NCBI GenBank assembly: GCA_021740745.1 | Contig: JAIOZF010000001.1 | Coordinates: forward strand, 1-64,000 | Length of the DNA stretch: 64,000 nt | Direction of reading: 5' to 3' | From: Crocinitomicaceae bacterium | GTDB taxonomy: Bacteria; Bacteroidota; Bacteroidia; Flavobacteriales_D; Crocinitomicaceae | Shown here: piece by piece, positions 36,151 through 61,694 of the stretch | Position numbering within the stretch: position 1 is the stretch's first letter | Layout of the letters: each line of letters opens with the position of its first letter | Position numbers and translations under genes: made by a program | Notes under the pieces: generated by a model | Databases searched by the model: none | Told to the model about the DNA's origin: nothing | What the model saw: the letters and a program-made list of their open reading frames with translations, nothing else

Positions 36151-36257
36151 AACAATCAAATCCAAGTCAAATTAAAAACAATTGCTTGTAGATTTTAAAG
36201 CGTTCGAAACAATTTACAATTGTCATTAATTAGTTCGAATTGTCAAAAATATTTTTA

Positions 36258-36265
36258 TAGTTTTG
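36258..36265 (+). promoter_or_regulatory. -7 box candidate of the second Rhs gene (TAGTTTTG)
   Basis: TAnnTTTG match 50 bases before the ATG at 36316. A TTG at 36240-36242 is closer (15 bases) than the usual spacing, so the call is weak, but it fits the choice of the start at 36316. Confidence 0.35.
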
Positions 36266-36315
36266 TTCGAAATAAAATACTAGAAGAATGCGTTTCTAGT
36301 AATTCAAAACACTAT

Positions 36316-42300: not shown

Positions 42301-45225
42301 GATTTTTTCAATAATAGTCAAAAAATTAACGATCAAGATTTCCCATTATCTACTACAAAATTGGTTCAGGTACATGCTCAATTTAATTATGATGGATCAA
42401 GAGAGCAGTTCAATAGCAATCATTTACTAAAGGAGGGTAGCCTTTCTGGTCATAATTTGAGTACAGGGTATATCTACACGCCTGCTAGTGTCGATAAAAA
42501 AGAATATCAATACATGGCAGATGGTCAGTTAGCTAAGGTAGAATATTATTATCAGGGATTAACTGGTGTGCATAGTATTGAACCCATCTATAACAATATG
42601 AGATTGCCTGTTGGTAAATCTTATACAAATTCATCTCAGTCTAATTACAATTTCACGTGGAAATCAGAATTGGACAATTTTGGGCGAGTTAAAGTGAATA
42701 GCACAGCACATAATGGTATAAGTACACAAACTGGTAAATACTATTACGATCTTTTTGGAAATCTTTTAATGCAGGGATTAGGTTCAACAGGTAACACAGT
42801 GAATCCACATATCGATTATGTTGTTTATAAGCGAAATATTCGAAATCAAGTGGTAAATGAAATGTCCAAGAAATTACGAATTGGTCTTTCATATGATATG
42901 GTCGGAAACATTACTAATCAGTATTGGAGTAATGAACATTTCGACCCAACAACTGGAGCCACAGTAAATGTTAACCAATATCAATACTATTATGATAAAA
43001 TGAACCGTTTGGTTGGAGCAGATTACAAGACAGGTAGTTATGCACAGAACCCATTCTCCTATTTCAATAATATCTCTGCTAATATGCCGAATGACTTCAT
43101 TTGTGGGGTAGATGAACGTGAATTTAAACAAATTTTGGATCCTATCTTTAATGAACTCAGAGACAATATAAAAAATCGGATAAATGTTGATTTATCAAAC
43201 AGTTCAATAAATGCACTTAATTCATTACAAGAACAGTATTTTGCAAATAATGTTTCATATCCAACAATGACAGATGACGAAAGGGTAGTGTTTTTGAAAA
43301 ATTATATTGTTAGTGCTTTTAAATTGGGTACAGATCCCAAGCATTACGAACAATACATGGCTGAGAAAAATAAAGACCAAACACATTTAAATATACTGCG
43401 ATCTGGGGTAACTGATGTTTCTAAATTAAAATACATCAAATTACTGCTTCAGTTTATTTCAGTTACTGAATACATGGAATGCGAACCAAATGCTTCTGCA
43501 ACAGTTTATGCATATTTGCCAAATTTCCAAACACCAACAACTACAACAAATGTTACTAAGTATGATGCTGCTTATTGGTACTCAAAAAATGGAAATTTAA
43601 ATCTATTGAATAGAAATGATCAAACAGGTGTGAAAACACAACAAAACTATGCATACTCCAATCCTTCGAATAATCAATTAACAGGGGTTACATGGACCAA
43701 TATCAATACCTCAGTTTCTTTTAATCATTTATATCAATATGATCAAACAGGGAATTTATTGAATGATCCAAGAAACGGCGTTACATCAATTGATTATATA
43801 AGTTATAATGATTTACCACAAGGAATAACAAATGGAAGTGGATTGAAAACTTATCGATATGACAATAGTGGTCAGCGTATAGTAAAAACAAATAGCGCGA
43901 GCGATATTGAATTTTATATTGGCGATGTAATAGTTGCTTCAAGTGGTGAAGTAAAAAGTTATCAAACCAATGAAGGTTTTGCAGTACCTGCAAGTGCTGG
44001 TGGAAATACAATAGAATATTTCTATAACTTGAAAGATTGGTTAGGTACCAATCGAATTGTGCTCGATGCAACAGGAGCGATACAAAATGCGTCTGACCAC
44101 TACCCTTATGGACTTAGTATGCCAGGTCGCCATATGTCATCTGAAACAGAAGGAGATCGCTATCAATTTACTGGTCATGAATTTGATGGTGAAACGAATT
44201 ATGAATACCATGGAGCACGTTATTACAATCGAGAGCTTGGAAGGTATATGAGTGTTGACCCCTTGGCAAGTCAATTTGCTGGGTGGAGTTCGTATAATTA
44301 TACCATGAGTAATCCTATCATGTTAGTTGATCCAAACGGCTTATCACCCACTGATCCTAGTGCAAGCGATAATATTCCAATATACGATCAAAATATAAGT
44401 GAAGTAAATGCAGAAACAAAGGGATTATCTCAAAGGCAAGTTGATCGAAATCAGAAAAGAATGTTGCTTGGAAGAGGTAAATACAGAGGCAGTGAATTCG
44501 ATGAGCGCAGAGTTTCAGCAGGTTCTTACGAAATGGGGCGCAATTTAATGGAGAAAGGAAAGCTAAGTACAAGACAATATGCAAGTTTGTATAATGAACA
44601 TGGATGGGCACAGCATGATTTTAACACAGCAAAATTCAGTCGAAACTCTATGAATAATTCACTTGCAGAGGCTCAAAACAGGAAAATTGGTAACTTAGAT
44701 GAGGCCGCATACATGGTCGCAGGAGCAGCAGCTATTTTTGCAGCACCACTATTAATAGAAGGAGCTATTTTTGCAGCACCGCACATAGCAAATGGTGCGG
44801 GAACTTTAGGTCGATTAACAATTGAAGGTGGTAAAATGTATCATAATACATTTGGTATAAATGGCGGGTATTTAAATGCTGCGGGTAATTTTACAAGTCA
44901 AACAATTTCAAATGGTGGTCAACTTTCAAAAACAAATGTATTGGGAGTTGCTTTTTCTGGGTTTATCCGTACTGGGTTTATCGGTTCTGGAAATAACATA
45001 ATATCAAATGGAGCATTGGGTGGATTGGCTTCTGGTGGTTTAGTTTCAATCAACGTAGATGGGACATCTCAAACATTTTTCGACAATCCTAACCACGGTG
45101 GACTAACAACCATAAATGGAATTTTATTAGGTCCTACCTTAAGCCCTTTCGGGCCTATGGTGGAACATATCGGTACAGGTATATATCAAGGGTTTTTAAA
45201 TCAAACAAGTGAGAAGCTAAAATAG
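36316..45225 (+). CDS. Giant secreted Rhs-repeat protein with variable C-terminal tail (Rhs-2)
   Basis: About 2969 aa from the ATG at 36316, which begins a proper signal peptide (MKIHLIILCAFLAFQSTGQ); the frame is open to 36220 but that extension is not signal-like. N-terminal shell region: FPIELQYGSGIKVDQNSGPV, GLGWAMPIGSITRDYG. Central YD-repeats are clear (YDDAGRLINVYDPEGKITAY, YNSLGVLIKSQSPDKGTAEL). The Rhs core (LKDWLGTNRIVLDATGAIQN, YEYHGARYYNRELGRYMSVD, YNYTMSNPIMLVDPNG) lies at about 2565-2675. The tail of about 290 aa has a charged part (RQVDRNQKRMLLGRGKYRG) and a hydrophobic part (YMVAGAAAIFAAPLLIEGAI), then glycine-rich sequence; no toxin family recognised. Not closely similar to Rhs-1 outside the core. 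The next gene starts at the base after its stop. Confidence 0.9.
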   Translation: MKIHLIILCAFLAFQSTGQNNAPSKTFTEKLDGISTSAKELTKNASTDNSSVGQSGIMSTSVPLVTVSSRTMSFPIELQYGSGIKVDQNSGPVGLGWAMPIGSITRDYGAFQPDYSSTLHEGDMLDVSSSTVPQNGWLNTSGIGINPDYNSTFLGYDILPASQQPIPLSDYYHISVPGLGSNSFWNGGSIGGSHNWKLTEYENWRIQHNVKTYSIDQEYSRINELNRLDNSSGVFDNSGSFAAAIGMLPYVINGWASAYDASEVKKVTYEDFKEFIITDPNGTQYVFGRALRGQKFVFNDNPYWSTGTNLIGSSNAANGSFWKIDYIAEWLLTEIRTVDYVDVNNNGIADDGDAGDWIRFEYTNPTQSIHTVPKESSSDFLSTVPAHREWSSYSQTDQASSLMRERAYLTKIITPTQLVDFTISQRFDVEHDYYSKPANKKGTEFYYEDKKVGIANGSTSDFDIEYPVETMKYDSIKVYSKLIDKNLYPTENLMIQAVALNYAQKGSAQELAVSEYLIRNNDNNPKLKSDGSVLGAPSGTDFEIENYKNNTDKRGKTTLLSVDYFGDIIQDNEKTSYRFEYGYNPSFNEIHKREIVRKWSSPSVRQSGDYYPNIKASGNISYTELVMDQTGSNYTSINHTSLVAHEFLIDFPYEEKYYKVDFGGNNNNLNYFVEQGAILPLSYPVISEARTHPLSPVKDVFGFLFSTNYSKAAEAWSLTKIIYPTGGEVSFMYEKGSFEMQTDQANWSFDQTEIPIIKQYNELAKQRSYVQNAVNEYAVEHSSPGVGVNNAQKTLTATFEVPLPSNYGIRLESKVINDKINPSVTVRYEYNSGHFTGLPSEYVQSTVGAFNQFILREKHRHSWELGHYGPNLSLWTTDYETKMKFAAISGLSLDEYATTHFYEKIDQIYSDNSFVRTHYGPIESLLNVEYDNFNLFCYRLPRSEAGYDGGFILARTNLNLKPINSLIVEHFETGNNIPYKSISYTYTREKLLGYEFKVDYTGGLPDPNDPNDHYNQVEMWDNTFEVWAPISNLYTGNSINSGNVQYWVIYPNSSAYGFGYLAECVVPSSFYLPYQGVSTYSYERWASFKTTLKSTQSDYKGMVNSSKYFYHPTLFTLIKKEDNFPSLNKKHITTYEYAHETYSSLTTKFQDLNLMNVPTRTTSYLNSIDLSNVLSAQMSTYDVSSYDVPKSKNNFVFETSINQNTGTFTLVHFDINSTMNPNWRIDQNVNLEYNNNSNLILSKTNRLYNKTVFGNNLNLTKATFAYPENKFDATYSGFEDFHDLNSIADWNTLEYKNETWFADGIVSEPEIKLSISNDDICGNSSFWLFSPGTDFYHVVSIDDVTNVSVGSDIEFIFNANGVTSVFSTKINSIVEKQVAINDFGATSYTLDYVLCFSNEIDFPFTNPLNSGNEDPLLSSNSHTISCEIGSVNYSLSKSYSRTGEYSYKLPTKRIDNESFNQTPIRPVKIYTTAEEGCLLEVPDDATAKSLIVPEHCKWKYEASVWLKYDTDLPGLKPTNNVVPKTLDPAGDARYIRGTISETDNGSQVKIICDVYNSTRSILIDQKIYYVEDLNAEWKQFTVDVSMLKQGEKWLDVYVVNERSQLGQPISSYKSVFVDDIAIYPQGAKYSYMTANKFGATTFAVDNNDVYVESIFDSKARPIAAINQYGNKTKVFEYFEHPNWTNQQNYITERNWVDDGLYNQSRYYIDGFGKTKQVMTADQTRGARIVSETNIFNNKGQVIRAYKPYVLKGSNFTAKFDNNYASKTLEFYGSNYAYVEATYEQKPDEYLVSLTSPRLNSESLISKTQSEYLSYTSITNTFTNQVYGVGSLMVHQMIDEAGSIVRTYIDAMSRVIMEEHQIGQNHIQNADGSISPVVSPNVFAQTWFNYDDAGRLINVYDPEGKITAYTYNSLGVLIKSQSPDKGTAELRYDKYGQVRFIKNEKDIIATDNSIYNTDQFKYSKYDVWGRVVESGMIMAAANNAGLDPSNLPFPSGDFFNNSQKINDQDFPLSTTKLVQVHAQFNYDGSREQFNSNHLLKEGSLSGHNLSTGYIYTPASVDKKEYQYMADGQLAKVEYYYQGLTGVHSIEPIYNNMRLPVGKSYTNSSQSNYNFTWKSELDNFGRVKVNSTAHNGISTQTGKYYYDLFGNLLMQGLGSTGNTVNPHIDYVVYKRNIRNQVVNEMSKKLRIGLSYDMVGNITNQYWSNEHFDPTTGATVNVNQYQYYYDKMNRLVGADYKTGSYAQNPFSYFNNISANMPNDFICGVDEREFKQILDPIFNELRDNIKNRINVDLSNSSINALNSLQEQYFANNVSYPTMTDDERVVFLKNYIVSAFKLGTDPKHYEQYMAEKNKDQTHLNILRSGVTDVSKLKYIKLLLQFISVTEYMECEPNASATVYAYLPNFQTPTTTTNVTKYDAAYWYSKNGNLNLLNRNDQTGVKTQQNYAYSNPSNNQLTGVTWTNINTSVSFNHLYQYDQTGNLLNDPRNGVTSIDYISYNDLPQGITNGSGLKTYRYDNSGQRIVKTNSASDIEFYIGDVIVASSGEVKSYQTNEGFAVPASAGGNTIEYFYNLKDWLGTNRIVLDATGAIQNASDHYPYGLSMPGRHMSSETEGDRYQFTGHEFDGETNYEYHGARYYNRELGRYMSVDPLASQFAGWSSYNYTMSNPIMLVDPNGLSPTDPSASDNIPIYDQNISEVNAETKGLSQRQVDRNQKRMLLGRGKYRGSEFDERRVSAGSYEMGRNLMEKGKLSTRQYASLYNEHGWAQHDFNTAKFSRNSMNNSLAEAQNRKIGNLDEAAYMVAGAAAIFAAPLLIEGAIFAAPHIANGAGTLGRLTIEGGKMYHNTFGINGGYLNAAGNFTSQTISNGGQLSKTNVLGVAFSGFIRTGFIGSGNNIISNGALGGLASGGLVSINVDGTSQTFFDNPNHGGLTTINGILLGPTLSPFGPMVEHIGTGIYQGFLNQTSEKLK

Positions 45226-47046: not shown

Positions 47047-47209
47047 ATTATTTGAATTTTACTCAACCAATCAAGGGATTATTTAAATTACTATTGCCGA
47101 AGTTTATATTCCAATTTTCTATTTGAAAATTGTCTTAAAGTGTGAATAGAATCCTGTGTTTTGTTGATAAACAAATGAGTTAATGGCCGCCATAAACGCC
47201 CTGATTTGC

Positions 47210-47217
47210 TATTTTTG
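47210..47217 (+). promoter_or_regulatory. -7 box (TATTTTTG) before the MORN-type gene
   Basis: TAnnTTTG match lying within the upstream part of the open frame, so the true start of the next gene must be further downstream (TTG 47242 or 47248). It may drive the whole secretion operon, since no good box is seen between 47887 and 47951. Confidence 0.45.
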
Positions 47218-47241
47218 ACTCAATCATTTATCCTGAAAAAA

Positions 47242-47886
47242 TTGAACTTGGAACATAGAAATCTATATCTACTTATTTTCATTTTTAGTATCTCTTTCAC
47301 ATTTGGTCAAAAGCCCGATAAAGATTTTCATTTGAACAAATCATTAAAACAAGATGGTTATCATTATCAGTTTTCGATTTTAGATGAAGACAAAAGAGGT
47401 GTTTGGTCTTTCAACAAAACAAAATTTTATTTTTGGTACAAAGCACAACATATTCTTTCAACTCAAGGCGGTGGATCCGGTGAATTATTAAACGGTGATT
47501 TTATAGCTTATCATGAAAATAAACAACTCGCACAAAAGGGAAGTTTTCATAAGGGTTTGAAGGATGGAAAGTGGATGTATTGGAGAACAGATGGCACATT
47601 GATGACAATTGAATCTTGGAGGAAAGGCATGCCTAGTGGAGAAAAGGAGGTATTTAATGACAATGGAGAATCAATTGAAACTGTCAAATTCTCTCGAATA
47701 AGAACTATAAGAACTGTTTCAGACAGTATTATAATAAGCAACCACATTAGAAAGAGAAAGTCCATTATGTTGAAAGATGCAAATGGAAAAGTAATTGATA
47801 AACAACACTTTAAAAATGGTGTTATAATCAACAAAAAATCTGGGAAACTACTTCCAAAACTCTTTAGAAAGAAGGATGTCGAATAG
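47242..47886 (+). CDS. Secreted MORN/YwqK-type protein
   Basis: About 214 aa from TTG at 47242 (TTG 47248 is equally possible; no in-frame ATG precedes the signal peptide). Signal peptide LYLLIFIFSISFTFGQ, then a MORN-like region (GDFIAYHENKQLAQKGSFHK, GLKDGKWMYWRTDGTL, WRKGMPSGEKEVFNDNGES) and a basic C-terminus (SGKLLPKLFRKKDVE). It resembles a short version of the protein at 4108-5820. It precedes the secretion operon by 65 bases in the same direction and may be co-transcribed, but a role in secretion is not shown. Confidence 0.7.
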   Translation: MNLEHRNLYLLIFIFSISFTFGQKPDKDFHLNKSLKQDGYHYQFSILDEDKRGVWSFNKTKFYFWYKAQHILSTQGGGSGELLNGDFIAYHENKQLAQKGSFHKGLKDGKWMYWRTDGTLMTIESWRKGMPSGEKEVFNDNGESIETVKFSRIRTIRTVSDSIIISNHIRKRKSIMLKDANGKVIDKQHFKNGVIINKKSGKLLPKLFRKKDVE

Positions 47887-47951: not shown

Positions 47952-49193
47952 TTGAAACTTCACAACCATATTCGAATTAAATCAACAGCCTTAGGTTATG
48001 CTATTGCCTTTCTGCTGTTAGTTGGTTTGATTTGCTCTGGATTATTATTTGTGGCCAGTGTCAATAAGCGGATTGAGAGAAACTACTCGGTAAACGAGCA
48101 TCTCGTATTTGATAATTATTTTGCTTTCTTATATGGAATTGAACGGGCAACTTTAGGAGATTTGGAATTGCCACATCCTTCGGGCGATACAAGTATCATA
48201 CATGTAAAAAGATGGGGAGCATATATGGTAATGGAAGTGACAACACGCCATGGAAATAGAAAGTTAACAAAAACTGCTTTAATTGGAAATAAAAACAAGG
48301 ATGTGTTGTCTGCGGTATATGTACCAAACAATAATCAATCATTAAAGGTTTGTGGCAATACAAAAATTGAAGGGATTGCTTCGCTTTCAGAAAGAGGAAT
48401 TGAACGGTCTTATATTGCTGGCAATCATTATCTAAATGATAAATTACTTTATGGATCCATGGAGGTGTCTGATCAATTTCTACCAACACTTAATGAAAAT
48501 TTCAAGAATTTGACCTTGGAATCGTTTTATCCTGAAACTGTAAAATTAGATTGGAACCATAAGGATTCTATCTTTTCATTTGGAACACGAACAACTTTGA
48601 TTACGCAACTTGAACCAATTGTATTAGAACAAAATCTTAAGGGCAATGTGATCATTCATTCTTTTGATTCGATTACTGTTAAGGCAAGTGCTAGATTGGA
48701 AAACGTAATTCTTATTTCACCGAAAATACGTTTTGAAAAAGGATTTACGGGTAGTGTTCAAGTAATTGCTCATGAGCGTATTACATGTGAAAAAGAAGTA
48801 CACCTACTCTATCCATCAGTTTTGATACTTAATGAAACAAAACCAAATAATTCAGAAAAAAAACTCGAGATACTGTTGGCAAACAAAAGCAAGGTGTTAG
48901 GAGGTATACTTTTAGTCTCTCAATACCCTGACAAACGAAAACCAATTAGTTTGAAGATTGATGAAGGTATAGTTGCTGGGTTTGTATACAATCAAGGTGA
49001 AACTGAACTTATAGGTAAAATTGCTGGTCATATCTACACACAACAGTTTGTATTGTATACAGGCGGAGGACAATATAATAACCAACTAATGGATGCTATT
49101 ATCTCGGAAAAAGATCTGCCAAAGTATTTTGTTTATCCTGAATGGATAACAAGCTCAATGAAACCTCAACCTGAAATATTAGCATGGTTTTAA
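47952..49193 (+). CDS. GspK-like minor pseudopilin (no Glu5) with beta-helix-like body
   Basis: 413 aa. The start is a TTG; the leader LKLHNHIRIKS is followed by TALGYAIAFLLLVGLICSGLLF, a prepilin-type hydrophobic helix. Aligned to the other prepilins of this operon, position 5 of the mature protein is Tyr, not Glu; absence of Glu5 together with large size is the mark of the GspK tip subunit in type II systems. The body contains repeated short strands (KGNVIIHSFDSITVKASARL, NVILISPKIRFEKGFTGSVQ, VIAHERITCEKEVHLL) reminiscent of bactofilin-like or beta-helical folds. First structural gene of the operon, overlapping the next by ten bases. Confidence 0.65.
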   Translation: MKLHNHIRIKSTALGYAIAFLLLVGLICSGLLFVASVNKRIERNYSVNEHLVFDNYFAFLYGIERATLGDLELPHPSGDTSIIHVKRWGAYMVMEVTTRHGNRKLTKTALIGNKNKDVLSAVYVPNNNQSLKVCGNTKIEGIASLSERGIERSYIAGNHYLNDKLLYGSMEVSDQFLPTLNENFKNLTLESFYPETVKLDWNHKDSIFSFGTRTTLITQLEPIVLEQNLKGNVIIHSFDSITVKASARLENVILISPKIRFEKGFTGSVQVIAHERITCEKEVHLLYPSVLILNETKPNNSEKKLEILLANKSKVLGGILLVSQYPDKRKPISLKIDEGIVAGFVYNQGETELIGKIAGHIYTQQFVLYTGGGQYNNQLMDAIISEKDLPKYFVYPEWITSSMKPQPEILAWF

Positions 49194-49504
49194 TTAAACA
49201 CATAAAATCTTCCGGAATTGCGGAGGTAGTAATCGCTTTGGCAGTTATTGCTATGTGTTTTACAGTAGCATCTTTGGTCTTTATACGAACATCATCTGCT
49301 CCAATGAAATTTCAAGACGTTCGAAAACAAACTGAAATCCAGTCTTCCATTCTTATGAAAATGTATCAAGAAGATAGAGATATTGAAATTGATGAGACAG
49401 AAATGGGAAAAGAAACTGACATGCTTTCTGATAGTTTAGAAGTTTTGACTTTCACTGGATCCGATAATAGAATTTTGTGGCAGCAACAATGGTTTAAAAA
49501 ATGA
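49184..49504 (+). CDS. GspI-like minor pseudopilin
   Basis: 106 aa. Leader MVLIKHIKS then SGIAEVVIALAVIAMCFTVA: Glu at mature position 5 and a long hydrophobic helix, as in class III prepilins. The body is short (about 75 aa) and mostly polar. It overlaps the GspK-like gene by ten bases and the following prepilin gene by four (ATGA), so translation is coupled. By its place between K-like and J-like genes it is probably the GspI-type part of the tip complex. Confidence 0.65.
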   Translation: MVLIKHIKSSGIAEVVIALAVIAMCFTVASLVFIRTSSAPMKFQDVRKQTEIQSSILMKMYQEDRDIEIDETEMGKETDMLSDSLEVLTFTGSDNRILWQQQWFKK

Positions 49505-49989
49505 GAATTAAAAAAAATAAGAATCATTTTGCTGCATTTACATTGTTAGAGATAACAGTGGTACTGGCAATTATGAGCATTTTAATTTCGATAGTGTCGT
49601 TAACACTTAATCGCTTTAATGAACAAATGAAACAGAGTGCTGAATTACAGGAAGAATTAAATCATTGGTATCAGTTCCGATCAAATTTATGGCGAGAATT
49701 ATATTGTTCAGACTCATTAAGATTTAATAATGATATTCTAACTATTCACAGTTCAAATGAAAATATTCAATATAAAGCAAACAATGATGTATTATATAGA
49801 AAAAATGGGGAGAGCGAATGGATTGAATCAAAGATAAAAGCAGATTACCTAAAAGAAATAATTAGTGATGAAAAACGCGTTTTAGAGTTTTCATTTATTT
49901 GGAAAGGTGAACCTTTAGTATTGAACTATTTGTGTAAGGAATCAAAGAAACAAAAAATTGATACTTACTTCAATAAACTAACAAAATGA
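49501..49989 (+). CDS. GspJ-like prepilin protein
   Basis: 162 aa. Leader MRIKKNKNHFAA followed by FTLLEITVVLAIMSILISIV: canonical FTLLE start with Glu5 after an Ala at -1. The body (about 130 aa) begins with a coiled stretch (QMKQSAELQEELNHWYQFRS) and then beta strands; size and place fit GspJ/PilW-type minor pilins. Starts overlap on both sides by four bases. It would be cleaved by the peptidase at 51561-52031. Confidence 0.75.
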   Translation: MRIKKNKNHFAAFTLLEITVVLAIMSILISIVSLTLNRFNEQMKQSAELQEELNHWYQFRSNLWRELYCSDSLRFNNDILTIHSSNENIQYKANNDVLYRKNGESEWIESKIKADYLKEIISDEKRVLEFSFIWKGEPLVLNYLCKESKKQKIDTYFNKLTK

Positions 49990-51080
49990 TGGTGGAAACT
50001 GCTCAACAACCGCTTTCGTTTTTCCAACAGGAAATTAAATTTGGCAAGGCTTTTCCTGATAAGCTGAAGGAAGGGTTCTACACTGAATTCACCTCTTTAT
50101 TGGAAAGTGGAATAGACATTCAAAGAGCCTTGAATTTATTAGTTGAGGAACAAGAAAATAAAAAAGTCCTTTCGATTTTAGATGGTATACGAAGTGATTT
50201 AATTGGAGGTAGCACCTTGGCTGAAGCCATGAAAAAATCAGGGCATTTTATTTCTTATGAATATCAAAGTATTCGCATAGGCGAAGAAACTGGACAATTG
50301 AAAAACGTGTTACATCATCTAGCAAAATTTTTCTCAGATAAAGTAAAACTCAAACGTCAACTAATTGGAGTTTTTACATATCCAGCCTTTGTTTTCTTAA
50401 TTACCATAGGCGTATTGTATTTTATGCTCAATAGTGTCGTACCTATGTTTGAAGATGTTTTTAAACAATTCGGACAAGAGCTTCCTTTTTTAACAAAGAA
50501 AATAATTTGGCTTTCAAAACACTTTACGACCTTTTTTATGATTTTTTTAGGGATCACAATTCTTATGTTTATCTATGGATATTACTCACGTAAAGAAATT
50601 TGGTTTCGTTCAATAACTTCAAGAATTGTATTAAAAATCCCTGTTTTCGGAATCTTAATTGAAAAAATATATCTTGCTCGAATGTGTCAAAGTATGTCTT
50701 TGTTATTATCAGCGCGAACTCCTTTAATTAATGCCTTAGATTTGGTAGAGGAAATGATCGGTTTTTATCCAATTGAACACGCCATTCATGAAGTGAAAAA
50801 TGATATCCGAAAAGGTGAATCTTTGCATCAAGGAATGTCAAAATTCCCTATTTTTAATAAACGATTAATCTCATTAACTAAAATTGCCGAGGAAATAAAT
50901 CAATTAGATTTAACTTATGACCGCTTAGCCAAACAGTATCAAGAGGACATTGATTTTAGAACAAAATTAATCGGAACAATCATCGAACCACTAATAATTG
51001 TTGTAATTGGGCTTATTGTAGGAGTAATTATGGTTTCAATGTATTTGCCAATGTTTAATTTGTCAAATGTTATAAAATAA
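49986..51080 (+). CDS. Type II secretion / type IV pilus platform protein (GspF/PilC)
   Basis: 364 aa inner-membrane protein. Two GspF-type domains are visible: the first with FTSLLESGIDIQRALNLLVE, GGSTLAEAMKK and IRIGEETGQLKNVLHHLAKF, then the membrane pair (FTYPAFVFLITIGVLYFMLN and FTTFFMIFLGITILMFIYGY). The second half has SMSLLLSARTPLINALDLVE and KGESLHQGMSKFPIFNKRLI, and a final helix IEPLIIVVIGLIVGVIMVSM. It couples the extension ATPase to pilin assembly. It is slightly short for the family, lacking an extended N-terminus. Overlaps the GspJ-like gene by four bases. Confidence 0.92.
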   Translation: MMVETAQQPLSFFQQEIKFGKAFPDKLKEGFYTEFTSLLESGIDIQRALNLLVEEQENKKVLSILDGIRSDLIGGSTLAEAMKKSGHFISYEYQSIRIGEETGQLKNVLHHLAKFFSDKVKLKRQLIGVFTYPAFVFLITIGVLYFMLNSVVPMFEDVFKQFGQELPFLTKKIIWLSKHFTTFFMIFLGITILMFIYGYYSRKEIWFRSITSRIVLKIPVFGILIEKIYLARMCQSMSLLLSARTPLINALDLVEEMIGFYPIEHAIHEVKNDIRKGESLHQGMSKFPIFNKRLISLTKIAEEINQLDLTYDRLAKQYQEDIDFRTKLIGTIIEPLIIVVIGLIVGVIMVSMYLPMFNLSNVIK

Positions 51081-51140
51081 GAACTACTAAAATTACAGGG
51101 AAAAAGTGATTTTGTCAACGGAAAAAATAGAGAAGAAATT

Positions 51141-51560
51141 ATGAAATTCAAAGAAAAAAAACAAAAGGGATATATTAAAGCATTCTCATTAGCAGAAATT
51201 CTAATTGTACTGGCTATTATGGGAATTCTTATAATGTTAGTTGTCCCAAACCAAGCTGGTGTGGCTTCCCGAACAAAAAGTTTAGAGGCTCAACAAGAAT
51301 TGAAGATGATACACAATTTACAGTATGCTTATTTTTTACAGTTTTCCAAATATTCAGTTGATCTTCCTTCTATTAATTATATTCCTCATAAGTTGGTTAA
51401 TTCTGGCGGTACGGCGAATTATGAAATATCGATCTTGGAAGGTTCAACTACTGGATTTAGAGCGAAAGCAGAAGCTGTTGTAGATTTTAATGGAGACGGT
51501 AAAAAGAATATCTGGGAAATTGATCAAGATGGAGTATTAAAAGAAGTTCAACCAGATTAA
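51141..51560 (+). CDS. Major pseudopilin-like protein (GspG-like)
   Basis: 139 aa. Leader MKFKEKKQKGYIKA, then FSLAEILIVLAIMGILIMLV: mature Glu5 and the classic hydrophobic helix, Ala instead of Gly at -1. The body has the GspG-like pattern of an early helix (AQQELKMIHNLQYAYFLQFS) followed by a C-terminal strand region with DFNGDGKKNIWEIDQDG, an Asp-rich stretch that could bind calcium as in GspG. A 60-base gap upstream is the largest inside the operon and may hold a ribosome site giving higher expression, as expected for the main pilin. Confidence 0.8.
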   Translation: MKFKEKKQKGYIKAFSLAEILIVLAIMGILIMLVVPNQAGVASRTKSLEAQQELKMIHNLQYAYFLQFSKYSVDLPSINYIPHKLVNSGGTANYEISILEGSTTGFRAKAEAVVDFNGDGKKNIWEIDQDGVLKEVQPD

Positions 51561-52031
51561 ATGATAAAAATTATTCTAATTATATTGTTTTTAATTGTTC
51601 TATTTCAAGATATGAAATGGCGTTCGGTACATTGGAGTTTGTTCCCGCTAATGTTTTGTTGTTCCGTATTTATTGGAATTCAACAAATCGAAATACAACA
51701 ATGGGGATTTAGTTTATTGTTTATTATTTTCTTACTTCTATCATTGACCCTTTACCTTACAATCAGAACAGGAGCATTGGTAAATATAACAGATGGTTTT
51801 TTTAGTTGGGGCGATATTCTCTTTTTAATTGTTATCATACCCATTTTTGATCTATCGAGTTATATGTTAGTATTCACAATTGGGACTTTGCTGACTTTAG
51901 TTATCCATGCTATTATAACTCAATTTGATAAAAAAGAGACGATTCCGTACGCTGGTTATATGGCTTTTATAACATCATTTTATTTAATTTTCGAAACATC
52001 AATCATTCATTTTAAATCTATTTTGATATGA
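51561..52031 (+). CDS. Minimal prepilin peptidase (catalytic membrane domain only)
   Basis: 156 aa, about six membrane helices and no N-terminal zinc/methylase domain. The two Asp of this aspartic protease family are visible: Asp17 in LFQDMKWRSV and Asp85 in FFSWGDILFL (the usual GxGD becomes SWGD). Related short enzymes are the TadV/CpaA type. It would cut the leaders of the four prepilin-like proteins of the operon; absence of the methylase part predicts that the mature N-termini are not methylated by this protein. It starts directly after the GspG-like stop and overlaps the ATPase gene by four bases. Confidence 0.8.
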   Translation: MIKIILIILFLIVLFQDMKWRSVHWSLFPLMFCCSVFIGIQQIEIQQWGFSLLFIIFLLLSLTLYLTIRTGALVNITDGFFSWGDILFLIVIIPIFDLSSYMLVFTIGTLLTLVIHAIITQFDKKETIPYAGYMAFITSFYLIFETSIIHFKSILI

Positions 52032-53440
52032 GTGAAATATTAAATATCACTATTGCTCCTGAAATTCAACAACTAATTCGTTCTGATTTGGCTTGGCATT
52101 ATAGAATAATGCCTAAGTCTTCTGATTTAGATTCTATAACTTTTTATATTGACCAAACAACTGACACGGATATAGCACAAGAAGAATTAGAGGCTCTATT
52201 GGGAATTAAAATTCACATTGAAAAGGTTGAACCAGAACTTATTCAAAGAAGTCTCGGTAAATACTATCGTAATTCGACAGATGTAGATAATAAGATAACT
52301 TTTGATTCAAAAGTTGATTTTGTTGACCGTTTAATCCAAGAGGCGAATCACCTAGGCAGTAGTGATATTCACATTGAAATTTACAATGATAAAGCACGTG
52401 TTCGGATTCGGATAGATGGTCATCTAATTCAGCGTTATACTATTGATAAAGAAGAATACCCCGAGCTTGTAAACAAAATTAAAATTCGTTCAAATTTAGA
52501 TATTTCAGAAAAACGATTGCCTCAAGATGGTCGTATACAATACCAAGATTTTGATATTCGCGTTTCGATATTACCAACACTTCATGGAGAAAAACTGGTA
52601 TTACGAATTCTAGGGCATGACGCCTCCTCAATCAATATTGAAAAGGTTGGTTTCTCAATTGATGAACAAAAAAAATATCTTGAAGGAGTTAGAAAACCAA
52701 ATGGAATTATATTGATTAGTGGTCCTACTGGTTCTGGAAAAACAACAACGTTGTACGCAACATTAAAAATGTTAAATGATGAGAAAAGGAATATTGTGAC
52801 AGTTGAAGATCCGGTCGAATATACATTAGACGGCATTAATCAAGTTCAGCTTAAAGAATCAATAGGTCTTTCATTCTCGTCAGCCTTACGTTCGTTTTTA
52901 AGACAAGACCCAGATGTAATAATGCTTGGTGAAATCAGAGATAGTGAAACAGCACAAATGGCTATAAGAGCCGCGCTTACCGGTCACCTTGTTCTTTCAA
53001 CAATACATACAAATTCTGCATGGGGCACAATTTCTAGATTAATTGATATGGGTGTCCCTCCATTTTTACTTGCAAACACGATGAATACGTCAGTAGCTCA
53101 AAGATTGGTGCGTAAATTATGTAGTTCATGTAAAACAGAAGTACCATTGAATCCAAGTGATTGGCCTTTAAATCAGGATAATTTTGAAATCCCATCTGTT
53201 CACTCCATTTCAGTAGGTTGTGATAAATGTCATTATACTGGTTACAAAGGTAGAATGGCACTTTATGAGGTAATTCCAATTGACCATCAACTTGCAGAGA
53301 AAATTAAGAATAATGAACAGCCTTCTGAAACATTGCTTAAGGAACGAGGGATTAAAAAATTGGCTGAAAGAGCATACGAATTATTAACGGAAGGAACTTC
53401 GTCACTCGAAGAGGTTTATCCACTTTTAACAGGTTATTGA
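52028..53440 (+). CDS. Type II secretion / type IV pilus extension ATPase (GspE/PilB)
   Basis: 470 aa cytoplasmic motor. N-terminal domain (about 1-100), then the core: SDIHIEIYNDKARVRIRIDG, Asp box, Walker A GPTGSGKTTTLYATL (about residues 230-244), Walker B DPDVIMLGEIRDSETAQMAI (about 296-315), His box TGHLVLSTIHTN. The zinc-binding tetracysteine (CSSC near 366 and CDKC near 399) is present, as in true GspE/PilB; PilT lacks it. Hence this is an assembly ATPase, and no retraction ATPase is seen nearby. Overlaps the genes on both sides. Confidence 0.95.
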   Translation: MSEILNITIAPEIQQLIRSDLAWHYRIMPKSSDLDSITFYIDQTTDTDIAQEELEALLGIKIHIEKVEPELIQRSLGKYYRNSTDVDNKITFDSKVDFVDRLIQEANHLGSSDIHIEIYNDKARVRIRIDGHLIQRYTIDKEEYPELVNKIKIRSNLDISEKRLPQDGRIQYQDFDIRVSILPTLHGEKLVLRILGHDASSINIEKVGFSIDEQKKYLEGVRKPNGIILISGPTGSGKTTTLYATLKMLNDEKRNIVTVEDPVEYTLDGINQVQLKESIGLSFSSALRSFLRQDPDVIMLGEIRDSETAQMAIRAALTGHLVLSTIHTNSAWGTISRLIDMGVPPFLLANTMNTSVAQRLVRKLCSSCKTEVPLNPSDWPLNQDNFEIPSVHSISVGCDKCHYTGYKGRMALYEVIPIDHQLAEKIKNNEQPSETLLKERGIKKLAERAYELLTEGTSSLEEVYPLLTGY

Positions 53441-55329
53441 TGAAATTAGCAAGTTTTTTAGTTTTGACTTTTGTATTCTGTTCATTTTATGGATCGTCCC
53501 AGAAATATACAGAACAAGAAATAAGAACAGTATTAGATTCTTTAAGTAAGAAATATAAAGGGTATAATAACACATTACAGCTTAATGTTACCAGTCTTTC
53601 ATTATCAGAATTAGTAAATTCTGTTGCACTTGAAAACAATATGAATATCAGTGTTGATCCATCCTTGAATCAAATGATAACTTATAATTTTTATGATGCC
53701 CAGGTTAAAGATATGATGGTTTTTCTTTATTTAAATTTTGAAATCGAATTTGAATTTGTAGGTTCTATTCTATCAATTAAAAAAAGAGTTACAACCATTG
53801 AAAAACCAAAACCAGCAGTTTACAAAAAACCTGAAATATCATATAATCCGGCAAACCACTTCTTGTCAGTTGATTTGAAAGGCGATACTTTATGGAGGGT
53901 TGCAGAGGAGATTACAAGACTTTCTGGAAAGAACTTTGTGATCAGCCCGGATATTCGAAATAAAACACTGAATGCATTTATCCAGAATCGACCAATTGAA
54001 CAAGTTGTGGAAATGATTGGAAGATCAAACTCTATCGTTCTGAAGAATTCGGATGATTTTTATATGCTTTCAGCTCAATTTTCAGAAACAGATATTACTC
54101 AAAACAAAGGAAGCAATAAGACATCTGCAGGCCGAGGAACGGAATATACTATCAAAAAAAATTCTATTGGTAATTTGGATGTTTCAGCTACGGATGCTAA
54201 TATGAACGATTTACTAATGGAAGCGGCCAATAAAATGGGAGTTCATTACGTCGTTTATTCGACAATCGATGGAAAAGCAACATTGGAATTGAAGGATGTT
54301 AGTTTTGAAGATTTGATAGGTCGATTATTCAATGGAACGAAGTATAGCTTTACCAAAGATTCAGATTTATATATAATAGGTGAAATAAAACAAGAAGGGA
54401 TTCGGAAAACAGATTTGATTCGTATTGAAAATCGAACCATTGAATCTGTGAAAACAGCAATTCCCAAAGAACTCCTAGAAGAACTTGAAATATCTGAGTT
54501 TGTAGAGTTAAATGGATTAATCGTTACAGGAGGTGAACGTAAAATTGAGGAGTTAAAAAGATTTATTACTCAAATAGACGTAGTTGTTCCAATGGTACAA
54601 ATCGATGTAATGCTTTTGTTTTCAAAGTCAGGTGCTACTAATAAAACAGGTATAAAAGCAGGATTAAAGGATGTGCCAACCCAAACTCAAGGAGAAGTGT
54701 TTCCAGGTTTAGATGTGGAAATGGGATCGGAAACAATTAATAATATTCTAAATGCAATTTCTGGTTTTGGTATTGTAAATCTAGGACAAGTAACTGAGAA
54801 CTTCTATATTTCACTTCAAGCACTTGAGACCAACAATATCATCGAAATAGAAAGTACACCGAAGGTTTCAACTCTTAATGGACATGAGGCTTCAATTTCT
54901 ATTGGAGAAACAACCTATTATCAAGAAACTCAAGTTAACGTGCAAACATCTGTTACTAATTCAGGAGTTGTACAGTCGAAAATTTGGAAATCAATAGAAG
55001 CTAATCTAACTGTCAAAATTAAACCATTTGTTAGCACTGATGAACATGTTACTTTAACTATTTCAGTTGAGCAAGATGATTTTTCAGGGAAAATAGATCC
55101 AACTTCACCACCTAATATTTCGACTCAAACATTTGAATCAATGGTGCGTGTCAAAAATGGTGAAGTCATCCTTTTAGGTGGCTTGGAAAAAAAGAAAAAA
55201 AATGATTCAGGTTCTGGTGTTCCTTTACTTTCAAGAATACCTGTTTTGAAATGGTTGTTTAGCAGTCGTTTAAAAGAAAAAGAAAAATCGAAATTACATA
55301 TTTTGGTTAGGCCAATAGTTACATACTAA
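53440..55329 (+). CDS. Secretin (GspD/PilQ family)
   Basis: 629 aa from the ATG at 53440, which overlaps the ATPase stop by one base. Signal peptide (ending YGSSQ), N-terminal N0/N1-like domains (LNVTSLSLSELVNSVALENN; LKGDTLWRVAEEITRLSGKN), then the secretin domain with SLQALETNNIIEIESTPKVS, TLNGHEASISIGE and, near the end, VRVKNGEVILLGGLEKKKKN plus VPLLSRIPVLKWLFSS. It forms the outer-membrane channel of the machine. The protein ends soon after the secretin domain, without a pilotin-binding S-domain extension. Confidence 0.95.
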   Translation: MKLASFLVLTFVFCSFYGSSQKYTEQEIRTVLDSLSKKYKGYNNTLQLNVTSLSLSELVNSVALENNMNISVDPSLNQMITYNFYDAQVKDMMVFLYLNFEIEFEFVGSILSIKKRVTTIEKPKPAVYKKPEISYNPANHFLSVDLKGDTLWRVAEEITRLSGKNFVISPDIRNKTLNAFIQNRPIEQVVEMIGRSNSIVLKNSDDFYMLSAQFSETDITQNKGSNKTSAGRGTEYTIKKNSIGNLDVSATDANMNDLLMEAANKMGVHYVVYSTIDGKATLELKDVSFEDLIGRLFNGTKYSFTKDSDLYIIGEIKQEGIRKTDLIRIENRTIESVKTAIPKELLEELEISEFVELNGLIVTGGERKIEELKRFITQIDVVVPMVQIDVMLLFSKSGATNKTGIKAGLKDVPTQTQGEVFPGLDVEMGSETINNILNAISGFGIVNLGQVTENFYISLQALETNNIIEIESTPKVSTLNGHEASISIGETTYYQETQVNVQTSVTNSGVVQSKIWKSIEANLTVKIKPFVSTDEHVTLTISVEQDDFSGKIDPTSPPNISTQTFESMVRVKNGEVILLGGLEKKKKNDSGSGVPLLSRIPVLKWLFSSRLKEKEKSKLHILVRPIVTY

Positions 55330-56501
55330 TGAAACAAAAGCTAAATATATTTGGAGCCAAACGAGTGATTATAATCTTTGTTGAATTAAGCAAAGAAAAT
55401 AATCATTTTTATGCTATGTCTTCTGGATATAAAGAAAATATCCTTAAAAGTGATGCGGAAAAATTTGCTTCGATTGATGATATAGTCAGAAAATATGGCG
55501 CATCTAGGGCATATTGGGTTCATGTTTCTGGAAGTGGTGTGTTATCTCGACTAGTAGACAGAAGTACTGGTTATAAAGACGATATAATTATAAACGGTGA
55601 CAAGGATGATTTTCTATTTTCCTCCTATACAGATGGGGAAAAGAGTGCAGTTTCATTTGTTAGGAAAACATTATTAAACAATGTTATAGAAACCTTAACA
55701 AAATTGAAAGTTATTTTAATTGGTATTTCAGCAGGAAATATTCCTCATTTTGCCTTATTAAGCCCTGATGATTCGTTAGAATATGAATTCAAAATTGTGA
55801 CAAAAAATGGATTAATAAGTGAATTCAAAAGAAATGAAATTAGAAACAATTTAACGACTTTTCGAAATCAAGTTGTAAGTGAAAAACAATTCATTGCTTC
55901 ATCAATAATTACATTTTTGAATGATTTTAAATCAGGATTTGAATTTTGTTTGTCAGATAAGGATATGGCTGTTGCATTGGAAGAATACAGTCAACGCAGA
56001 AGATTCACATATATCGGTGTAGCATCACTGCTATTAATATTTTTGATCGTCGCTTCTAATTATTTTTATATTAATTTTTTAAATAATCAAGTAGCTCAAT
56101 TGGAAATGGATCTCTCGTTAAGCAATAATAATTTAACACTTATTGATCAACTAGATCAGGAAAAAATCAGAAAAGAACAACTAATTGAAACATCGGGTTT
56201 GTCTGGTAATAAATTTATTTCTTTTTATCTCGACAAAATTGGTCAAAGTGTTCCTCCTTCGATTTATTTAAAGGAAATGACAGTTTTTCCATTGGTAGAA
56301 AAGCTTAAAGATAAACGGAAGGTATCTGTGGATACACAAAAAATAGAAATTCTTGGTTTAACTGGGAGTAGTGTAGTTTTTGATGACTGGATTGAAAAAA
56401 TGAATCGATTAGAATGGGTGAAAAGTGTAGAGGTTATGAATTATTCTAAAATTAACGAGTCGCAAGCTGAATTTAAATTAATTATGTTCCTAACAAAATG
56501 A
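55329..56501 (+). CDS. GspL/PilN-like assembly platform protein
   Basis: 390 aa, start overlapping the secretin stop by one base. About 220 cytoplasmic residues (possible degenerate actin-like, PilM/GspL-type fold: RVIIIFVELSKENNHFYAMS, KLKVILIGISAGNIPHFALL), one membrane helix (FTYIGVASLLLIFLIVASNY, about 225-245), then a coiled coil (VAQLEMDLSLSNNNLTLIDQ) and a PilN-type periplasmic domain (PPSIYLKEMTVFPLVEKL, IEILGLTGSSVVFDDWIEKM). The layout is that of GspL, in which PilM-like and PilN-like parts are fused. Sequence similarity to known GspL is faint, so the call leans on architecture and gene order. Confidence 0.7.
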   Translation: MKQKLNIFGAKRVIIIFVELSKENNHFYAMSSGYKENILKSDAEKFASIDDIVRKYGASRAYWVHVSGSGVLSRLVDRSTGYKDDIIINGDKDDFLFSSYTDGEKSAVSFVRKTLLNNVIETLTKLKVILIGISAGNIPHFALLSPDDSLEYEFKIVTKNGLISEFKRNEIRNNLTTFRNQVVSEKQFIASSIITFLNDFKSGFEFCLSDKDMAVALEEYSQRRRFTYIGVASLLLIFLIVASNYFYINFLNNQVAQLEMDLSLSNNNLTLIDQLDQEKIRKEQLIETSGLSGNKFISFYLDKIGQSVPPSIYLKEMTVFPLVEKLKDKRKVSVDTQKIEILGLTGSSVVFDDWIEKMNRLEWVKSVEVMNYSKINESQAEFKLIMFLTK

Positions 56502-57025
56502 CATTTTTTGAAAAATATAGTTACAAAAAAAAGAACTACGCACTATTAGTTCTCATTATCCTTCTGCTTGCTGTTGTGTATAAGCGTTCAATAAAAACAA
56601 CACTTGAAATTAAAAAATATAGTAATGAATTAAATGCCAAACTAGACAAGGCAAAATTCGCCACCACAGACATTCGATTAAAGCAACAACAAATATCTAA
56701 ATTAAACGATTATCTTGGGCAAGAAAACAATTCTGTTGAAAAGGTGCAGCAAGGATTTCTTAATTTTTTTGCACGAAACTCTTCACGTTTAATAGTCTAT
56801 CAAATCGATGAAGTTCTAACTTTTAAACACCCAGATTTTTCGATTAAAACACATCGAATTGTTCTTAAAGGCGGTTTTATCAATTCACTCAAGTTTATTC
56901 ATTTATTGGAAAAAGATTTTGATTTAGCACGTCTAATAAATGTAACTTTTAAATATCAGAAAAATCCTAATGACGATAAAGAATCTCTATACACCACTTT
57001 GATTTTACAAAATTATTTACGTTAA
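56498..57025 (+). CDS. PilO/GspM-like protein
   Basis: 175 aa: a short cytoplasmic start (MTFFEKYSYKKK), one membrane helix (NYALLVLIILLLAVVYKRS, about 13-31), a coiled coil (KKYSNELNAKLDKAKFATTD) and a small periplasmic alpha/beta domain (HRIVLKGGFINSLKFIHLLE). This is the standard layout of PilO and GspM, which pair with PilN/GspL. It follows the GspL-like gene with a four-base overlap. Motif conservation is low; assignment is by architecture and position. Confidence 0.7.
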   Translation: MTFFEKYSYKKKNYALLVLIILLLAVVYKRSIKTTLEIKKYSNELNAKLDKAKFATTDIRLKQQQISKLNDYLGQENNSVEKVQQGFLNFFARNSSRLIVYQIDEVLTFKHPDFSIKTHRIVLKGGFINSLKFIHLLEKDFDLARLINVTFKYQKNPNDDKESLYTTLILQNYLR

Positions 57026-57034
57026 TTTAGAATT

Positions 57035-58009
57035 ATGAAAAATATATTGTACCTAACCACATTGCTTGTTATTTCTGCAATTTTCACCTCTTGTAAAGAA
57101 ATAATAGCAGAAGACATCACAAATAGAACTCCAGAATTAATTGTCCCAACCATTTCAGATACTGTAATGTCAAATCCAGTTCAATTTAAATGGGAAGCAA
57201 TGGACGGTGCTACTAAATATCATTTACAAGTTGTTTCACCCTCTTTTTCGACAATTTCAGATTATGTTATCGATACTATTATTTATACTACGAATTTCTC
57301 GTTTCCGTTAGATTCGAATGAATTTGAATTAAAGTTAACAGCGCTTAATGGTGGATACACATCCAAAACTTTAGGACCCATTCATTTTTGGGTGGGCATC
57401 TCCCCTTCCTCATCCACAGGGACTATTACCCTGCTATCCCCGTCGGAAGATGCTTATATAAATGAGAGTTTTGATGGAACGTTCACTTGGCAAGGTTTCA
57501 TGAGTGCATCAAGTTATGAATATAGTTTAAGAAAGGGAAGTTCATTTGCTACTGGTAGCATACAACATACACAAAATGGTATTACCGCCAGTTCATATGT
57601 AATACCAAATACTGTTGAGCTAACTGAAGGATTATATTATTGGGGGGTAAAAGGGTATACGCAATTTGGAGAAACATATTTTAAAACGAGTACTTTTCAG
57701 GTTGATTTAACCGACCCAACAACTCCCTCATTACTCTATCCAACGAGTATGGATTTTCCTAGTTCAGGATTAATTAACTTCACTTGGAACAATGGAACAG
57801 ACGTTGGTGTCATTCAATCTCCAATTCAGTCAATTATTGAAGTTTCTGTTGATCCTGGGTTTTCATCGATACTAAAAACTGATACGCTTATTGGCTCATC
57901 ACAGGGTTATACGCTTTCACCGGGTACATATTACTGGCGAGTAATTAATATGGACTTGGCTGGGAATTCATCTGCTTATTCCATTGTTCATCAATTTTTC
58001 GCAAACTAA
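57035..58009 (+). CDS. Lipoprotein with Fn3-like repeats in the secretion operon
   Basis: 324 aa. Lipoprotein signal with Cys at residue 20 (LVISAIFTSCKE). The mature part is three Fn3/Ig-like units, each with a 'F-x-W-x-x-x-x-x-A-x-x-Y' core: VQFKWEAMDGATKYHLQV, FTWQGFMSASSYEYSLRKGS and FTWNNGTDVG, each ending in a 'YYWGV/YYWRV' strand. It has no counterpart in model type II systems. It sits nine bases after the PilO-like gene and its stop overlaps the start of the PilP-like gene, so it is part of the operon; it could act as a pilotin-like or envelope-anchoring protein. Confidence 0.7.
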   Translation: MKNILYLTTLLVISAIFTSCKEIIAEDITNRTPELIVPTISDTVMSNPVQFKWEAMDGATKYHLQVVSPSFSTISDYVIDTIIYTTNFSFPLDSNEFELKLTALNGGYTSKTLGPIHFWVGISPSSSTGTITLLSPSEDAYINESFDGTFTWQGFMSASSYEYSLRKGSSFATGSIQHTQNGITASSYVIPNTVELTEGLYYWGVKGYTQFGETYFKTSTFQVDLTDPTTPSLLYPTSMDFPSSGLINFTWNNGTDVGVIQSPIQSIIEVSVDPGFSSILKTDTLIGSSQGYTLSPGTYYWRVINMDLAGNSSAYSIVHQFFAN

Positions 58010-58491
58010 TGAAAAACAAAGGATTGATTTATGTTTTATTAATTGTTGTTGCCGTTATCTGGTACAACGTATTCTATAGGGTTGTTTCTAATCTTAATGA
58101 AAATGAAACTACTCTCCTTGAATCAAATGCAATTAAACCAACAGTAAAAACTATTGACCGTGATACCTTTAAAATCAATGCGAACTACCGTGACCCATTT
58201 GGTGGTACCTCCGTTGTTTTGAATAATGATTTATATAACGAATCTATACCAGAAATAAGGTTGTCTGTTCCCAAACAGAAACAAAGAATTCAATGGCCAA
58301 TTGTAGAATATAAGGGACTTGTGCGTAAAACAGATTCACCCAACCCTTTAGCAATTATTTATATCGATGGCATTCAACTGCATATGCGAAAAGGTGAATC
58401 AGTTTTTGATGGTATCCTTCTGAAGAATATTGGGAGAGATTCAGTCGTAATAACTTACAAGAAAGAAAAAAGGGTTTTTTGGAGAGATTGA
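58009..58491 (+). CDS. PilP/GspC-like protein
   Basis: 160 aa, start overlapping the lipoprotein stop by one base. N-terminal membrane helix (GLIYVLLIVVAVIWYNVFY, about 4-22), linker, then NYRDPFGG (about residue 63), the 'RDPF' signature shared by PilP and the homology region of GspC, followed by a beta domain (WPIVEYKGLVRKTDSPNPLA, IYIDGIQLHMRKGESVFDGI, YKKEKRVFWRD). It would link the inner-membrane platform to the secretin. Last gene of the operon; no terminator hairpin is visible before the 12-bp repeats. Confidence 0.75.
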   Translation: MKNKGLIYVLLIVVAVIWYNVFYRVVSNLNENETTLLESNAIKPTVKTIDRDTFKINANYRDPFGGTSVVLNNDLYNESIPEIRLSVPKQKQRIQWPIVEYKGLVRKTDSPNPLAIIYIDGIQLHMRKGESVFDGILLKNIGRDSVVITYKKEKRVFWRD

Positions 58492-60018: not shown

Positions 60019-60359
60019 GGTTTAATCCGATATAATTGATCTATTAACTCATGAATTTCCATTAACTGAAGCTTTAACATTGATAATGCTGGAATTTCTT
60101 TTTTTGCGTTTGCTAGGTTTGCAAGTTGATTGATGTTGTTGCCTATTCTCCTCAGTTCTGTGCGCACTTCAGGTAAAAGTGGGTCAATGTTTCGTGTTAT
60201 GACTTTAAGCTCTCCTGTAAGTAATATTTCTTTTGCTTCTGTTGCGGTAAGAATTTTACCGTATTTAGTTTTCATTAATGACTTGTCTTTTGCGTATAAG
60301 GATATTTGAATTCTTGTACGTTTTGAGTCATGTTTTTTATCTTTATTTTCTCTCTCCAT
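60015..60359 (-). CDS. MobC-family relaxosome protein
   Basis: 114 aa, basic N-terminus (MERENKDKKHDSKRTRIQIS), then the MobC-type segment LRRIGNNINQLANLANAKKE near residue 70-90 and a terminal helix (LMEIHELIDQLYRIKP). MobC proteins bind near oriT and help the relaxase open the strands. Its stop overlaps the start of the relaxase gene by four bases; the candidate oriT lies directly upstream. Confidence 0.85.
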   Translation of the reverse strand: MERENKDKKHDSKRTRIQISLYAKDKSLMKTKYGKILTATEAKEILLTGELKVITRNIDPLLPEVRTELRRIGNNINQLANLANAKKEIPALSMLKLQLMEIHELIDQLYRIKP

Positions 60360-60413
60360 ATCAATCTATATTACATCCCATTCGCTTGTCGTTCCCAATA
60401 ATTGAAAATTGTG

Positions 60414-60441
60414 GTAGTACTTCGGAATCCGAGTGCACTAC
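60414..60441. other. Candidate oriT hairpin
   Basis: An imperfect inverted repeat: GTAGTACTTCGGA (60414-60426) facing TCCGAGTGCACTAC (60428-60441), which share GTAGT/ACTAC and CGGA/TCCG stems. It sits in the 165-base non-coding gap immediately upstream of the mobC-relaxase pair, where oriT is normally found in such elements. The nick site cannot be placed by eye. Confidence 0.4.
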
Positions 60442-60524
60442 TTGCCTTCGATAACTTTTAATTATTTGCCAAATTTTGATTGTTCGATGACTTTGTAGTT
60501 CTTGGCTTTAGGGGTGAAAATAAA

Positions 60525-61151: not shown

Positions 61152-61170
61152 TTTATTTGATTTAAGATTT

Positions 61171-61211
61171 AAAAAAGGGAGCCTAAAGGGATTCTTCCCC
61201 TAAAGGCTCCC
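61171..61211 (-). terminator. Rho-independent terminator (minus strand)
   Basis: Read on the minus strand, GGGAGCCT (61204-61211) pairs with AGGCTCCC (61177-61184), with a second inner GGG/CCC stem, followed by TTTTTT (61171-61176). It ends the transcript of the gene at 61246-61689. Confidence 0.75.
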
Positions 61212-61689: not shown

Positions 61690-61694
61690 TTTTC

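Follow-up and report, generated by a model that had tools for sequence, protein, structure and literature searches.

A probable type II secretion-like machine of Bacteroidota with RHS giants as putative cargo

In a stretch of 64,000 nucleotides from a Crocinitomicaceae bacterium (assembly GCA_021740745.1, contig JAIOZF010000001.1, positions 1 to 64,000; hereafter the window), a complete operon encodes a secretin, an extension ATPase, a platform protein, prepilins and their short peptidase, and an inner-membrane complex resembling GspL/PilO/GspC. The evidence tips, although not far, towards a machine that resembles the type II secretion system (T2SS), is derived from type IV filaments and has RHS proteins among its cargo. 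The machine type has been described previously; the new element is the RHS giants as putative cargo. The computed features of the system are its component set, a fused GspL, one ATPase with no second or retraction ATPase, a β-solenoid tip pilin, the additional proteins W and Fn, and an association with RHS proteins.

This association was observed across the class. Among 396 genomes of the class Bacteroidia, the RHS core is present in all 69 system-positive genomes and in 147 of the 327 negative ones (Fisher P 2e-21; all P values given here are nominal and too small). When an independent curated model was used, the machine was located within 20 kb of an RHS core in 13 of 18 near-complete genomes, where 0.52 would be expected (P 3e-17). 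RHS sequence was found in 46 of 79 intervals extending up to 20 kb around the ATPase gene, compared with none of 40 random intervals from 20 of these genomes. The control was gldL of the type IX secretion system (T9SS): in none of 18 genomes did it come as close as 20 kb to the RHS N-terminal domain typical of near-operon proteins, in contrast to 13 of 18 for the operon. This N-terminal domain, defined by an alignment of 94 positions (A3), occurs in 66 of the 69 positive and 65 of the 327 negative genomes (P 3e-34), and the curated-model distance test is the cleaner of the two because A3 was built from near-operon proteins. RHS proteins sampled from negative genomes mostly carry another, SpvB/Tc-like N-terminal type (loci L190-L193, L195, L205 and L208), and several RHS proteins of machine-less genomes have no evident signal peptide. 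In many relatives, as in the window, RHS genes lie near the operon, and an annotated record of Flavobacterium jumunjinense, in which operon homologues are present, exhibits the same adjacency. Since the machine stands repeatedly beside RHS giants across the class, RHS proteins are its best candidate cargo. The preliminary description, made from the DNA letters, had called the substrates unknown; this can be improved upon, as co-occurrence and position make the linked RHS giants strong candidates. A search of the open literature, with subscription papers outside its scope, found no open-access paper linking the operon to RHS proteins.

The twelve same-strand genes named in that description are all present as open reading frames (ORFs) from 47952 to 58491 on the + strand (Table 1). 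Most junctions were said to overlap by 1-10 bases; 8 of the 11 overlap, and the remaining three are gaps of 60, 0 and 9 bases. The first of the twelve is not the start of the operon, however. A conserved thirteenth gene, W, precedes K and is an operon member that the twelve-gene list omitted. In 43 of the 48 loci that contain both genes, W is the immediate upstream neighbour of K, and 20 of 23 W members match MORN_2 (best 8.5e-12). Two main gene orders were observed, K-I-J-F-G-O-E-D-L-M-Fn-C and G-O-E-D-L-M-Fn-C-W-K-I-J-F. Family profiles were compared with reference T2SS and type IV pilus (T4P) profiles by hhalign, which gave the profile probabilities in Table 1; the reference T2SS genes came from E. 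coli K-12, O157 Etp, Providencia, Bradyrhizobium and Sulfitobacter records. The Pfam match of the peptidase is weak or sub-threshold, as are those to PilN (0.034) and T2SSC (0.0014).

Table 1. Operon genes and candidate substrates in the window, with the basis of each assignment
Feature	Coordinates	Strand	Basis
RHS giant 1, 3095 aa, Sec signal, candidate substrate	24894..34181	+	RHS_repeat Pfam 3e-8; Rhs_assc_core 69.9 bits
RHS giant 2, ORF of 3001 aa, Sec signal, candidate substrate	36220..45225	+	RHS_repeat Pfam 9e-7; Rhs_assc_core 66.5 bits
W, exported MORN-repeat protein	47206..47886	+	alignment A4
K-like tip pilin, predicted long N-terminal helix and β-solenoid	47952..49193	+	AlphaFold model, pLDDT 93.3
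I-like minor prepilin	49184..49504	+	GspI profile probability 91%; GspG/H/J 78-88%
J-like minor prepilin, cleavage after Ala	49501..49989	+	Pfam N_methyl 9e-6; GspJ probability 97%
Platform protein GspF/PilC	49986..51080	+	Pfam T2SSF 4e-46; GspF 239.7 bits
Major (pseudo)pilin, GspG/PilA-like, cleavage after Ala	51141..51560	+	GspG profile probability 98%
Short prepilin peptidase	51561..52031	+	Pfam Peptidase_A24 E 0.0074; GspO profile 84%
Assembly ATPase GspE/PilB	52028..53440	+	Pfam T2SSE 8e-123; PilB 474 vs GspE 454 bits
Secretin GspD/PilQ	53437..55329	+	Pfam Secretin 5e-40; GspD profile 99.8%
Fused GspL	55329..56501	+	AlphaFold model, pLDDT 92.6
PilO/GspM-like protein (M)	56498..57025	+	PilO-like profile 96% vs GspM 29%
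Fn, conserved lipoprotein with Ig/Fn3-type domains	57035..58009	+	alignment A5; invariant lipobox Cys (C20)
GspC/PilP-like inner-membrane protein	58009..58491	+	GspC profile 88%

The L protein of the inner-membrane complex points to the T2SS. The model of the L protein comprises an actin-like cytoplasmic domain, one membrane helix and a ferredoxin-like periplasmic domain. In a structure search, the cytoplasmic domain matched GspL (4pht, E 6e-8, prob 1.0) ahead of PilM (3e-4), and the periplasmic part matched XcpY/PulL with a TM-score of 0.75-0.80 of the target. As modelled, L thus has the fused GspL architecture, and PilM and PilN are not separate proteins here. T2SSC was matched in 4 of 24 GspC-like members (best 1.4e-5). 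Fn and the GspC-like protein are encoded side by side in 62 of 65 loci, an fn3 domain was matched in 8 of 24 Fn members, and the lipoprotein is specific to the system. Fn3 domains have also been reported as enriched near Bacteroidetes TANFOR toxins (PMC7073777, Table 1), and part of that enrichment may come from the Fn lipoprotein of this operon.

A PilT-type ATPase, previously stated to be absent, was looked for in the whole genome (96% complete, in 137 contigs, which limits this result), and none was found, because only one ATPase exceeds the family cut-off. The same holds for relatives: all 14 class members with the system that were examined have a single T2SSE match each, whereas genomes of other classes that bear a T4P of the IVa type (T4aP) have two or more, and one full-length ATPase was found in each of the four system-bearing genomes checked with PF00437. 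A lack of PilT does not by itself distinguish secretion from competence pili or from pili that do not retract (PMC6668835). The tetracysteine described in the ATPase is seen in the sequence as two CxxC pairs. Naming by best match is unsafe because the PilB and GspE scores of the ATPase (Table 1) and the PilQ and GspD scores of the secretin (128.8 and 127.3 bits in NCBIfam) are nearly equal.

The ATPases of the system group in a clade of their own in a tree of 67 sequences, with support of 100/99 within the class and 95/87 when related systems of other Bacteroidota classes are included, and this clade stands apart from proteobacterial GspE, Bacteroidota PilB and PilT. The references, drawn from plasmid and E. 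coli records, are few; with them, grouping with Neisseria PilF and HofB receives support of 55/41, and the approximately unbiased test does not reject a clade with GspE (p 0.22). A firm placement with either the T2SS or the T4aP was given up on these grounds. Denise et al. found that the Bacteroidetes 'T2SS' groups with the T4aP in all trees and not with the T2SS, and allow that it may be a secretion system in its own right (PMC6668835). The preliminary description had taken a position inside twitching pili to tell against secretion; the published T4aP placement goes part of the way there, while our ATPase tree gives a separate clade with no firm neighbour. The related systems in other classes (loci L047-L049, L022, L024, L027, L030, L033 and L185) include some with K-, L-, M- and C-like genes. 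In one relative, the ATPase gene (L098, G660:C2:1260705-1262123) contains one in-frame TAA stop, and its system may therefore be decaying.

The tip pilin differs from that of the classical T2SS. The K-like gene had been taken for GspK, which finds no support in profile comparison (hhalign probability 0.3%) or among the fold matches listed, and this identity was rejected. ComZ (6qvi) is the best PDB match of the K model (E 1.5e-3, prob 0.75, TM-score 0.2), and no match passes E 0.001. Bactofilin, a β-solenoid family, is matched in Pfam by 12 of 38 K members. As judged from the model, K is a β-solenoid tip pilin in the place of GspK. The profile probabilities of the pilins reflect in part their common N-terminal helix. 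For the major pilin, the NCBIfam score of PilA_Myxo (40.2 bits) is slightly above that of GspG (32.4 bits). In the T2SS and T4P, prepilins are usually cleaved after Gly. In a simple scan of N-termini, Ala was found before the cleavage site in 111, Gly in 32 and Ser in 15 of 158 prepilins; the I-like prepilin is probably cleaved after Ser. The peptidase, at approximately 156 residues, retains both Asp motifs (QD and GxGD-type) and has no space for an N-methylation domain.

The earlier conclusion that the operon encodes a secretion machine and not a twitching pilus is likely right, on grounds other than those first given. The order K-I-J at the 5´ end had been offered as evidence, an argument that fails because K is not a GspK homologue. 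The conclusion rests instead on the fused GspL, the single ATPase without PilT here and in relatives, and the RHS linkage. Knock-outs of D, F and G in Cytophaga hutchinsonii altered the cellulose-bound outer-membrane proteins and slowed growth on cellulose, with gliding and motility normal (PMC5553014). In the proposed mechanism, RHS giants made with Sec signals would enter the periplasm and would be pushed out via the secretin by a short pseudopilus. The filament would thus stay within the periplasm as a pseudopilus rather than extend from the surface as a pilus, its cargo would be the RHS proteins, and either the tip pilin or the GspC-like protein would select them.

Both RHS giants of the window are located upstream of the operon and close to it. 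The start of the second is likely at an internal Met (MKIHLIILCAF), and the near-operon N-terminal domain A3 was found in it at 36397-36669 (E 7e-29). No T9SS domain was found by Pfam in either giant. Each is followed by a small ORF, a possible immunity gene, and then by a protein of 460 aa that carries a CHU_C type IX signal, so that this unit is present twice (34187-34759 and 34771-36150; 45226-45546 and 45655-47046). That the genome uses the T9SS and that neighbouring surface proteins carry its signals was borne out by GldL on contig C44 and by CHU_C and Por_Secre_tail domains in the window. Elsewhere, a protein with a distinctive C-terminal domain adjoins several near-operon RHS genes (L056:18007-19815, L057:2648-4438, L083:12694-15303 and L091:4686-6467) and may be a conserved RHS partner; in L056 this C-terminal domain is CBM96. 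Immediately 3´ of the operon, a MobA/VirD2-type relaxase, MobC and an HTH_17 protein lie within 58771-62226, and a phage-type integrase is found on the operon's own contig at C4:72577-73029, 8.6 kb past the window. These genes suggest that an integrative mobilisable element abuts the 3´ end of the operon. GC content around the operon gave no island boundary signal.

Several observations weigh against secretion of the RHS giants by this machine. The same RHS N-terminal domain is carried by 65 system-negative genomes, and none of the 28 of these that were checked contains a full-length T2SSE ATPase; the machine is therefore not always needed, and a strict dependency of RHS proteins on it was rejected. 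RHS genes can adjoin proteins with T9SS sorting signals, two of them in the window, so the T9SS could export RHS proteins. The P values are too small because the genomes are related, although the positives span 23 family codes. The extracellular protein profile of the C. hutchinsonii mutants was almost unchanged (PMC5553014), and the closest structural match of the tip pilin, a weak one, is a DNA-uptake pilin. The system-negative genomes and the T9SS-sorted neighbours would also suit an account in which a T2SS-like secretion machine shares mobile islands or insertion hot spots with RHS genes whose products leave by the T9SS or another route. The mobilisation genes and integrase just downstream of the operon, and the proposal from neighbourhoods that Bacteroidetes TANFOR toxins are T9SS substrates (PMC7073777), fit it as well. 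We nevertheless regard it as unlikely, as the linkage is specific (0 of 40 random intervals and 0 of 18 gldL loci), RHS is present in every machine-bearing genome, and the RHS proteins of the window have no T9SS sorting domains.

Two further accounts treat the filament as a pilus. In one, it is an adhesive type IV pilus that does not retract, and RHS proteins are its partners on the surface. This would agree with the published T4aP placement (PMC6668835), the slightly higher PilA score of the major pilin and the reduced cellulose adhesion of the C. hutchinsonii mutants (PMC5553014); the fused GspL and the absence of PilT make it improbable. A competence pilus for DNA uptake is very improbable. 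Its tip pilin would be the β-solenoid protein that best matches ComZ, the Thermus competence pilin, and Com pili likewise have no PilT (PMC6668835), but the ComZ match is weak in both E value and TM-score, the fused GspL is a T2SS feature and the RHS linkage would be left unexplained. F. johnsoniae, which has the operon, showed no competence under the conditions tested (PMC7965970); this counts against a plain competence pilus. Secretion of RHS proteins by a T2SS-like machine remains the reading that we prefer. A more far-reaching proposal is possible rather than probable: that the system of the Bacteroidota is devoted to RHS giants, as an independent secretion apparatus derived from T4P that has a tip pilin of its own and two private subunits (the MORN protein and the Ig/Fn3 lipoprotein), and that it forms a second outer-membrane route beside the T9SS for large polymorphic-toxin-like proteins.

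No substrate has been established for the Bacteroidota 'T2SS', and its classification is under dispute; the RHS link supplies concrete cargo candidates. Should the link hold, it would account for the passage across the outer membrane of very large proteins that are exported by Sec and lack T9SS signals. It would also be a case of secretion by a type IV filament machine, one that may have arisen apart from the classical T2SS. The system has a patchy distribution within the class (69 of 396 genomes). Among named genomes, the nearest relatives are of the Crocinitomicaceae type (Taishania and Fluviicola), with ATPases 69-84% identical, and a scan of named genomes with a single protein gave six near relatives, mostly of this type.

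Putative T2SSs have been described in C. hutchinsonii (CHU_3191-3202), F. johnsoniae (Fjoh_0611-0622) and Pedobacter heparinus (Phep_1100-1112), and the C. hutchinsonii type has the same component set as the operon (D, E, F, G, O, minor pilins and L/M/C-like proteins). As inferred from tag counts, the 12 consecutive Fjoh tags fit the order K-I-J-F-G-O-E-D-L-M-Fn-C and the 13 Phep tags fit G-O-E-D-L-M-Fn-C-W-K-I-J-F. In the available portion of that paper (PMC5553014), W and Fn are unassigned, minor pseudopilins are recognised by their N-termini only, and RHS is unmentioned. The RHS giants themselves resemble the Bacteroidetes RHS/YD-repeat polymorphic toxins in their Sec signal, RHS repeats, core domain, variable C-terminus and small downstream genes; the accessible part of PMC3482391 lists the 'T2SS' among several export pathways and makes no link to the operon. 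The pilin helix and large β-rich tip domain of K resemble Thermus thermophilus ComZ, by a weak structural match only. The operon is like the type IVa pilus in its PilB- and PilQ-like scores, which are as high as those of GspE and GspD, and in its PilO-like M, and differs from it in the absence of PilT and in the fusion of PilM and PilN as GspL. It shares with the proteobacterial T2SS (E. coli Gsp, O157 Etp) the secretin, ATPase, platform, I/J/G-like pseudopilins, fused GspL, GspC-like protein and lack of PilT. Unlike that system, it has a β-solenoid tip in place of GspK, no separate GspH, an M protein nearer to PilO, a short peptidase, mostly Ala before the cleavage site, the extra W and Fn, and a separate ATPase clade. 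The machine is thus of the already described Bacteroidota 'putative T2SS' kind; relative to the classical T2SS, it is a variant in which the tip pilin is a different one and two private subunits are added.

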